Shown one piece after another: positions 19,148 through 21,066 of a stretch of DNA of 23,403 bases. Made by a program: the position numbers and the translations under genes. The DNA comes from Candidatus Acetothermia bacterium (lineage in GTDB: Bacteria > Bipolaricaulota > Bipolaricaulia > Bipolaricaulales > Bipolaricaulaceae). The first letter of the stretch is position 1. Every line of letters begins with the position of its first letter. The DNA lies in contig DSBZ01000171.1 of assembly GCA_011057175.1 (NCBI GenBank), forward strand, positions 1 to 23,403. Direction: 5' to 3'. Under the pieces are notes generated by a model that was not told the origin of the DNA, did no database searches, and saw only the letters and a program-made list of their open reading frames with translations.

Positions 19148-19223
19148 TGGCAGGCCCGGGAGGACTTGAACCCCCAGCCTGCGGATTTGGAGTCCGCCGC
19201 TCTGCCACTTGAGCTACGGGCCT
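19148..19223 (-). tRNA. tRNA-Trp (anticodon CCA)
   Basis: A complete cloverleaf: acceptor AGGCCCG/CGGGCCT, D-arm with TAGCTCAAGTGGCAGAGC, anticodon CCA at 19188-19190, T-arm with TTCAAGT and a G discriminator. The 3' CCA is encoded (19148-19150). Located between rpmG and secE, a conserved position. Confidence 0.97.
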
Positions 19224-19429: not shown

Positions 19430-20644
19430 TCACTTGATGATCTTCGTCACCACGCCCGCACCCACGGTGCGGCCTCCCTCCCGAATCGCGAACCTGAGCC
19501 CCTCGAACATGGCGATGTGCTTCAGCAGCTTGCACCCCAGCCTGTCCACGTTGTCGCCCGGCATGACCATCTCCACGCCAGGCGGGAGCTGAACTTCTCC
19601 CGTGACATCGGTCGTCCCGAAGTAGAACTGGGGCTTGTAGCCGTTGAAGAACGGGCTGTGGCGCCCCCCCTCGTCCTTGGACAGGATGTACACCTGGGAC
19701 TCGAACTCCGTATGGGGCGTGATGGAACCGGGTGCGGCCAAAACCTGCCCGCGTTCCACCTCGTCCTTCTCGATGCCCCGCAGGAGCACCCCCACGTTGT
19801 CCCCGGCGATCGCTTGGTCGAGGGTCTTGTTGAACATCTCGAGGCTCGTGGCGACGGTCTTGCGGATCTCATCCGACAGGCCGACGATCTCCACCTCCGC
19901 GCCGGGGACGATCTTCCCCCGGTCCACACGGCCCGTGACCACCGTGCCCCGTCCCTTGATGGAGAAGATGTCCTCGATCGGCATCAGGAAAGGTTTATCT
20001 TCCTCGCGCTTCGGGAGGGGGACGAAGGCGTCCACCGCCTCCACGAGGTCCACGATCGGCTTGATCGCCGGGTCATCGATGGAGTCCGCCTGAAGGGCCT
20101 TGAGGGCCGAACCACGGATGATCGGGGTCTCGTCGCCGGGGAACTCGTACTTGTTGAGGAGGTCACGGATCTCGATCTCCACGAGATCGACGAGGTCCGG
20201 ATCCTCCACCGCATCCACCTTGTTCAGGAACACCACGATCGCCGGCACGTTGACCTGGCGCGCCAAGAGCACGTGCTCCCGGGTCTGCGGCATCGGTCCA
20301 TCGGCCGCGGAGACAACGAGGATCGCCCCGTCCATCTGCGCAGCGCCGGTGATCATGTTCTTGATGTAGTCCTGGTGCCCGGGGCAGTCGATGTGCGCGT
20401 AGTGGCGGTTCTCCGTCTCGTACTCGACGTGCGCCACGTTCACGGTGAGGATCTTCGTCGCATCGCGGCGAAACAGCTTCGCGTCGGCCTTGGCCACCTC
20501 GTCATAGGACCGTTGCTTGGCGAGTCCCTTGAGGGCCAACACCTTCGTGATCGCCGCGGTGAGCGTCGTCTTCCCATGATCGATGTGCCCGATGGTACCG
20601 ATGTTGACGTGCGGTTTCGTTCGAACGAATTGTTCCTTTGCCAT
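19430..20644 (-). CDS. tuf: Elongation factor Tu with divergent switch I
   Basis: EF-Tu brings aminoacyl-tRNA to the ribosome. The 404-residue protein has normal length and all G motifs: GHIDHGKT (19-26), DCPGH (86-90), NKVD (141-144) and SALKAL (179-184), plus intact domains II and III ([33 protein letters not shown]). The effector (switch I) segment is rewritten: instead of the near-universal PEEKARGITI, residues 59-68 read [10 protein letters not shown], keeping only the Mg-binding Thr and a basic residue. CPGHAD is CPGHQD, and domain III reads [12 protein letters not shown] where HPIAMEEGLRFA is usual. ATG at 20644 with AGGAGG upstream. It follows three tRNAs and precedes rpmG, as tufB does in E. 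coli. EF-Tu identity is clear; whether it is the main or a second copy is unknown. Confidence 0.96.
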
Positions 20645-20707
20645 CCTCCATCCTCCTCGTTTTCCTCCCCAGCTTGGACCGAGGCGGTCGGACCGCCCGC
20701 CCCTAAG

Positions 20708-20780
20708 AGCCCGCGGTCGGAATCGAACCGACGGCCTCTTCCTTACCAAGGAAGTGCTCTGCCGACTGAGCTACACGGGC
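20708..20780 (-). tRNA. tRNA-Thr (anticodon GGT)
   Basis: Full cloverleaf: acceptor GCCCGTG/CGCGGGC, D-arm TAGCTCAGTCGGCAGAGC, anticodon stem CTTCC/GGAAG with loop TTGGTAA (anticodon GGT), T-arm GGTTCGATTCC, discriminator T. CCA is not encoded. Lies 64 bases upstream of tuf. Confidence 0.97.
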
Positions 20781-20824
20781 GACGAGGCAAAGTCTACCCT
20801 ACCGCGCCCGTGGCGCGCAAGTCA

Positions 20825-20911
20825 TGGTGGAGGGGGAGGGATTCGAACCCCCGAAGGCCGCAGGCCGCCGGGTTTACAGCCCGGTGCGTTTGGCCGCTTC
20901 GCTACCCCTCC
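20825..20911 (-). tRNA. tRNA-Tyr (anticodon GTA)
   Basis: Class II tRNA with a long variable arm (CGGCCTGCGGCCTTC): acceptor GGAGGGG/CCCCTCC, anticodon stem-loop CCGGG CTGTAAA CCCGG (GTA), T-arm TTCGAAT, discriminator A. The 3' CCA is encoded (20825-20827). As a GUN-anticodon tRNA it is a natural target of the tgt product. Confidence 0.97.
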
Positions 20912-20943
20912 CGGCAAAACCAGCTCCCCAGTGCTACGGTCCT

Positions 20944-20979
20944 GCGGTTGGCCTCTACAACCGGAGCATCGCCAACCGC
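20944..20979 (-). repeat. 9-bp inverted repeat between two tRNAs
   Basis: GCGGTTGGC (20944-20952) and GCCAACCGC (20971-20979) are perfect inverted copies with an 18-base gap, in the 82-base spacer between tRNA-Tyr and tRNA-Thr(TGT). A further 6-bp pair (AACCAG/CTGGTT on the minus strand) encloses it. It lies in the general region of the cluster where other bacteria have an extra tRNA-Gly; it may be a processing hairpin or a relic. Confidence 0.5.
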
Positions 20980-20993
20980 TGAACTGGTTGGTG

Positions 20994-21066
20994 AGCCAGT
21001 GGCCCGAATCGAACGGGCAACCTTCCGCTTACAAGGCGGATGCTCTGCCACTTGAGCTACACTGGC
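20994..21066 (-). tRNA. tRNA-Thr (anticodon TGT)
   Basis: Full cloverleaf: acceptor GCCAGTG/CACTGGC, D-arm TAGCTCAAGTGGCAGAGC, anticodon stem TCCGC/GCGGA with loop CTTGTAA (TGT), T-arm CGTTCGATTCG, discriminator T. CCA is not encoded. First gene of the tRNA-tuf transcript. Confidence 0.97.

Follow-up and report, generated by a model that had tools for sequence, protein, structure and literature searches.

Three discrete forms of switch I in elongation factor Tu of several bacterial phyla

Switch I of elongation factor Tu (EF-Tu) contacts the nucleotide, the tRNA and the ribosome. This loop is regarded as all but invariant, and work on mechanism, ancestral reconstruction and phylogeny makes use of it. 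The window analysed here, the whole 23,403-nucleotide contig DSBZ01000171.1 of a Candidatus Acetothermia bacterium (phylum Bipolaricaulota; assembly GCA_011057175.1), contains a tuf gene whose product lacks the canonical switch I sequence PEEKARGITI. The question raised by this locus is whether such a gene is an artefact, a functionally altered or specialised elongation factor, as a sequence-only reading had proposed, or an ordinary EF-Tu with a different loop.

The tuf gene of the window

The gene and the elements of its product referred to below are as follows:

20644..19430, minus strand: tuf (elongation factor Tu) coding sequence, 404 aa; the sole full-length tuf found in the genome
20567..20590, minus strand: G1 P-loop GHIDHGKT, residues 19–26; intact
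20432..20509, minus strand: +5 switch I cassette, residues 46–71, from alignment with canonical P0104; type-specific columns 51, 54, 56, 60 and 66
20441..20470, minus strand: +5 core, residues 59–68; contains the residues invariant in aligned +5 proteins
20375..20389, minus strand: G3 DCPGH, residues 86–90; intact, followed by Q91, which is Ala in most aligned EF-Tu rows
20213..20224, minus strand: G4 NKVD, residues 141–144; intact, adjoined by residue 145
20102..20110, minus strand: G5 SAL, residues 179–181; intact, with residue 185 nearby

The product scores 647.8 bits against NCBIfam model TIGR00485 (cut-off 522.4) in a match over residues 1–404, and the G1, G3, G4 and G5 motifs are all present together with the switch I threonine (T67), in agreement with the earlier view that the protein is otherwise well preserved. 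The three-domain fold and the G motifs are common to this protein and canonical EF-Tu (E. coli, Thermus; TIGR00485), but its switch I is rewritten, lacks the Pro-Glu-Glu and Gly, and is five residues longer in alignment with P0104, a canonical EF-Tu of the same phylum. The variant proteins P0001, P0108 and P0111 all score above the TIGR00485 cut-off, indicating that PEEKARGITI is not a defining element of this family model.

Counting back from the threonine (T67), D61 corresponds to E55 and K64 to R58, in the E. coli numbering of the switch I residues (P53, E54, E55, R58 and G59). The core has no equivalents of P53, E54 or G59, with R59 in place of the proline and I65 in place of the glycine. 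Residues R59, R60, D61, K64, I65, L66 and T67 are invariant among 45 aligned +5 proteins. The non-canonical sequence claimed for residues 59–68 is therefore confirmed, as is the retention of the Mg-binding Thr and a basic residue. The interval originally marked, 20435–20491 (residues 52–70), does contain the altered stretch, but the five-residue extra length had been missed; the glycine is gone as described, whereas one member of the acidic pair is retained.

Two nearby changes, GHQD and AMFEG, had been regarded as companions of the altered loop, and this association is not general across +5 sequences. AMFEG is confined to the closest relatives, 3 of the 120 best homologs having it. The GHxD alanine is retained in 88 of 126 aligned +5 sequences; its substitution is commoner in the variants (38/126 for +5 and 9/61 for +2, versus 3/132 for canonical), but in independent pairs this position does not differ in 7.1 of 8 on average. 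Other changes in this region include G3 sequences reading DAPGHRD in four Chloroflexota proteins with canonical switch I (L246, L247, L248 and L250), where Cys is replaced by Ala and the Ala of GHAD by Arg, and DAPGHAD in three from Bipolaricaulota (L175, L178 and L180).

Assembly error and decay are both rejected by the comparison with homologs. The switch I class of the window is present in 119 of the 120 best homologs, a set that leans to variants, the query itself being one; the remaining sequence is P0104. The same search with P0104 as the query listed 120 homologs, all canonical. Within the window family (32 sequences), residues 50–61 and 63–71 show only synonymous codon changes, and five different Leu codons encode residue 57. 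The combination of no amino-acid change with many synonymous changes points to purifying selection on a working protein. An assembly error at 20435–20491, for which the sequence-only reading had allowed, is thus ruled out, and its judgement that decay is unlikely is borne out.

A second, canonical tuf, which that reading had suggested seeking, was not found as a full-length gene in the window genome (94% complete, 3.6% contaminated, 271 contigs), where the only further matches were two partial ones (31% and 28% identical). With one full tuf found in this genome, there is no canonical copy beside which the window gene would be a specialised second EF-Tu of the actEF-Tu or EF-Tu3 kind. Because no second full-length gene was found at 94% completeness, the assembly indicates that the window tuf serves as the housekeeping EF-Tu. 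Judging from its conservation and sole-copy status, its product would deliver aminoacyl-tRNA and act as a GTPase on the ribosome. A tRNA-Trp gene lies downstream of tuf (19148–19223, minus strand); upstream are tRNA-Thr(GGT), tRNA-Tyr and tRNA-Thr(TGT), all on the minus strand within 20707–21066, and the frames beyond these tRNAs resemble, on inspection, secE, nusG, ribosomal protein genes and rpoB.

Distribution of the three switch I forms

EF-Tu switch I occurs in three discrete forms: the canonical PEEKARGITI, a +2 form (AKGG..RD..K) and the +5 form of the window (VAKA......RRD..K). Among 306 genomes classified in eight phyla, 165 are canonical, 85 are +5 and 56 are +2, so that 141 of the 306 lack PEEKARGITI; the phyla were picked for holding variants, and the counts are not prevalences for bacteria. 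The counts for each phylum are:

Bipolaricaulota: 43 +5, 6 +2, 19 canonical
Chloroflexota: 1 +5, 0 +2, 46 canonical
Nitrospirota: 4 +5, 0 +2, 20 canonical
Omnitrophota: 0 +5, 13 +2, 16 canonical
Planctomycetota: 4 +5, 12 +2, 20 canonical
Verrucomicrobiota: 17 +5, 4 +2, 22 canonical
Myxococcota: 1 +5, 2 +2, 22 canonical
Elusimicrobiota: 15 +5, 19 +2, 0 canonical

All three types are found within each of Bipolaricaulota (the phylum of the window), Planctomycetota, Verrucomicrobiota and Myxococcota. The altered motif had been presented as a rare exception; it is instead common in ordinary EF-Tu sequences of known phyla, an outcome that the sequence-only reading had itself named as refuting it.

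The census covered 460 genomes, of which 349 gave a match at E 1e-90 or 1e-100. The tuf loci were read in 310 of these, four lacking the N-terminus and leaving the 306 classified; the 39 matched genomes outside this reading were mostly lower-scoring rows. The 111 genomes with no match probably reflect, for the most part, tuf genes that failed to assemble. Genomes with no tuf at the limit set numbered 27 of 81, 21 of 46, 14 of 43, 16 of 42 and 24 of 60 in five phylum samples, whereas two further samples of 44 genomes each had 2 and 0. Since the missing copies in these bins probably failed to assemble as well, absence of tuf from a bin is unreliable.

At least 119 stretches matched a degenerate DNA pattern built on the core motif, and all 119 matches listed translate to EF-Tu-like sequence around the site. 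The records bear the names of Bipolaricaulota, Omnitrophota, Elusimicrobia, Nitrospirota, Chloroflexi, WOR-3, Planctomycetota, Lentisphaerae, Kiritimatiellae, Patescibacteria groups, Myxococcales and others, and are metagenome-assembled by title, with three being chromosomes. Some record names are doubtful: in the 320-row tree described below, L064 (‘Thermotoga’) groups with Bipolaricaulota and L120 (‘Actinomycetes’) with Planctomycetota. When 43 genomes with variant loci from this set were searched, the gene was present in all 43 (partial in G114 and G123); the variant tuf is the single match at E 1e-60 in 37 of them, and six have two matches. A specialised second copy thus finds no support, given a sole full-length tuf in the window genome and a sole match in most variant genomes.

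Switch type and the rest of the protein

The relationship between switch type and the remainder of EF-Tu was examined in a tree of protein bodies, built without residues 30–78 from 382 EF-Tu rows that are 375 aa or longer (loci to L416), less 63 identical sequences and with the query added. The resulting 320 rows include 132 canonical, 126 +5 and 61 +2 sequences; one (L251) fits none of the three forms, and L332 (KGGEQRGETKILTI) was placed in the +2 class by hand. The tree mostly agrees with phylum: the phylum label changes 12 times on it for nine phyla with at least five rows, and switch type changes at least 21 times as canonical versus variant or 32 times as three types. Shuffling labels within phyla (20 shuffles) gives 76–91 changes; type is therefore inherited, yet flips often.

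A more careful tree of 76 of these rows, for which the bootstrap had not fully settled, has 16 canonical/variant changes and 21 changes among three types. The phylum label changes 13 times on it, where the minimum is 8, so the body tree is itself not perfectly vertical. All Bipolaricaulota rows fall on one side of a well supported branch (99/97), as do all Nitrospirota rows (97/90), and both phyla contain both types, while Myxococcota (5 changes), Chloroflexota (3), Planctomycetota (3) and Verrucomicrobiota (2) are not single groups. Seven independent flips occur on starred branches. Forcing the 41 variant rows into one clade lowers the log-likelihood by 220 and is rejected (p-AU 9e-75), in a test set up after the quick tree had already been seen. 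The types are thus discrete, co-occur within a phylum and have switched repeatedly across the body tree.

Differences between closely related proteins of unlike type are concentrated in the cassette. Between P0108 (+5) and P0111 (+2) there are differences at 14 of the 26 positions of the cassette versus 13 of 368 in the body (Fisher 6.6e-12), and between P0047 (+5) and P0124 (canonical) at 22 of 26 versus 36 of 369. In the set compared, the cassette of P0111 is closest to that of L086 (Omnitrophota), although their bodies differ by 27%. P0111 is a single 1,943-base metagenome contig and may be an assembly chimera; the deeper flips are independent of it. The spread within phyla has a standard deviation of 0.30 at residues 43–68, compared with at most 0.16 in 26-residue windows clear of 46–71. 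Correlation of the switch I window with the rest of the protein is low (0.28), as it is for some very conserved windows.

In each of the seven phyla compared, columns 51, 54, 56 and 60 separate the types fully or almost fully, and column 66 mostly so. Outside residues 42–74 the strongest association with type is at residues 185 and 145, and at neither is it near complete. These residues, which follow G5 and G4, respectively, lean with type in several phyla, residue 185 being mostly Glu in canonical proteins and most often Gln in variants; in independent pairs the median p for the two positions is 0.06 to 0.25. The lack of a strong association elsewhere indicates that the cassette is largely self-contained.

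Origin, function and meaning of the cassettes

We consider it probable that the window encodes an ordinary housekeeping EF-Tu with one of three interchangeable switch I cassettes, exchanged by short-tract recombination and serving an ordinary GTP switch. The cassette would pass from one tuf gene to another in a short tract of homologous recombination, with exchange probably occurring via a transient second tuf. The high conservation of the flanks and the frequency of genomes with two tuf copies (e.g. G103, G105 and G235) make recombination the likeliest route; no donor or tract was seen at the DNA level. Intragenic recombination has reportedly been described for archaeal EF-1alpha. It is conceivable, but unlikely, that switch I is a mobile cassette exchanged between phyla, its diversity maintained by agents which bind the canonical loop or attack it. 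One such agent would be the Lit protease, whose cleavage site in E. coli EF-Tu, Gly59-Ile60 (PMC3014915), is a bond absent from the +2 and +5 forms. The Lit family PF10463 had no match in 80 genomes, but none in the 14 controls either, so that its absence carries no weight. A tblastn search for a mobile carrier matched 19 phage and 86 plasmid records, with best identities of 64.8% (among the 10 phage records listed) and 68.3% (among the 15 plasmid records listed); a mobile element with a close variant tuf is thereby rejected as the carrier only among the matches listed.

Much less likely than recombination is that the three forms are structural solutions reached repeatedly by mutation in each lineage. 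The strong local constraint and the lean of residues 145 and 185 with type are consistent with such convergence, but the equal insertion length and the identical variable residues across phyla argue against it, as illustrated by KASESQGRRDPTKILTIAIS, common to Nitrospirota L295 and Verrucomicrobiota L361. Convergence also sits poorly with the block differences between near-equal bodies and with the finding that L251 alone of 320 rows (L332 being hand-assigned) lies outside the three forms. About as improbable are ancient co-resident tuf paralogs, gene-converted everywhere except switch I and then differentially lost. This reading draws on the frequency of two-copy genomes, on the gene conversion between tufA and tufB described in PMC4342817, and on G134 (a bin named Deltaproteobacteria), whose L253 and L254 are one +5 and one +2 tuf, 68% identical; here two types may truly reside together, or the bin may be contaminated. 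Such paralogs would, however, have had to persist through most of the history of bacteria, and all 23 genomes of the phylum samples in which two copies were read have copies of a single type. This count also tells against recombination, since the co-resident stage assumed for exchange is accordingly seldom if ever seen. Among the six variant genomes with two matches, the second copy shares the type of the first in four (G100, G103, G105 and G140). In G137 (Chloroflexi), the second tuf (L251) is degenerate, of canonical length and 61% identical to the +5 copy there; its switch I reads AIAESQHGVGINIAH, with the Thr gone and the frame still open over its full length. That the variants are specialised or altered EF-Tu proteins, as the sequence-only reading held, is very improbable: the contacts made by switch I and the loss of its Gly, a cation ligand according to PMC4342817 if the same Gly is meant, speak for it, but the motifs of the window protein are intact, and the variant is the only tuf found both in the window genome and in 37 of the 43 variant genomes searched.

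The +5 cassette keeps the Thr that binds Mg and the gamma-phosphate, together with one acidic and one basic residue, and replaces the Pro-Glu-Glu and Gly. It most likely performs the same job as the canonical loop: it orders over GTP, contacts the tRNA and ribosome, and releases after hydrolysis, and ordinary elongation by an alternative loop design appears likeliest. A switch I Asp has a role in Mg binding of the GDP state. A switch I Gly is described as a monovalent-cation ligand in translational GTPases, and others without this Gly are listed (PMC4342817). If the ligand is G59, the variants may coordinate the ion through a different backbone carbonyl or have another way of binding it.

An AlphaFold model of the +5 protein has a mean pLDDT of 80.4, with values below 50 at residues 55–71 and 89–102, the loop itself being unmodelled; the canonical control model is poor (mean pLDDT 59.9). 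Among the 50 structural matches listed, closed-form EF-Tu entries (GTP-analogue, ribosome-bound, kirromycin or aurodox) give query-normalised TM scores of 0.78–0.87 and open-form entries 0.48–0.57; most of the latter are GDP forms, EF-Ts complexes and ancestral reconstructions, although 5opd among them is named GTP-bound. The predicted domain arrangement of the +5 model is the closed one. Of 88 PDB sequences matched, those among the 60 listed that reach residue 81 are 3–5 residues shorter there, and the three printed alignments show the +5 insert missing.

No report of switch I cassettes was found among the titles and abstract openings listed by searches of the openly licensed literature, and an earlier mention elsewhere is possible. 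The actinobacterial second EF-Tu (actEF-Tu, Streptomyces EF-Tu3; PMC4342817) is likewise a distinct EF-Tu-like form in bacteria, but is a second, divergent paralog, whereas the window tuf is the only one found and has an ordinary body; switch I classes are not described for it in the available part of that paper. The patchwork of eukaryotic EFL and EF-1alpha (PMC3699394, PMC2664479) similarly involves patchy alternative forms, but there the alternation is of entire genes, and here it is limited to some 26 residues. A 2026 study clusters EF-Tu by predicted switch I conformation (PMC13351119), and neither ‘insertion’ nor ‘phyla’, nor any of three phylum names looked for, occurs in its accessible text. 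In the accessible text of a paper on PVC signature indels (PMC3444138), EF-Tu appears only as a tree marker.

Discrete switch I cassettes with many flips in a universal protein are unexpected and testable. If three such forms change independently of the remainder of the gene, a core GTP switch has several working designs, and nature can do without the canonical Gly and Pro-Glu-Glu. Trees of EF-Tu and its reconstructed ancestors would then be mosaic at the switch I loop, and enzymes or drugs aimed at the canonical loop would have natural non-targets. What is needed of the individual switch I residues would become directly testable by cassette swap.
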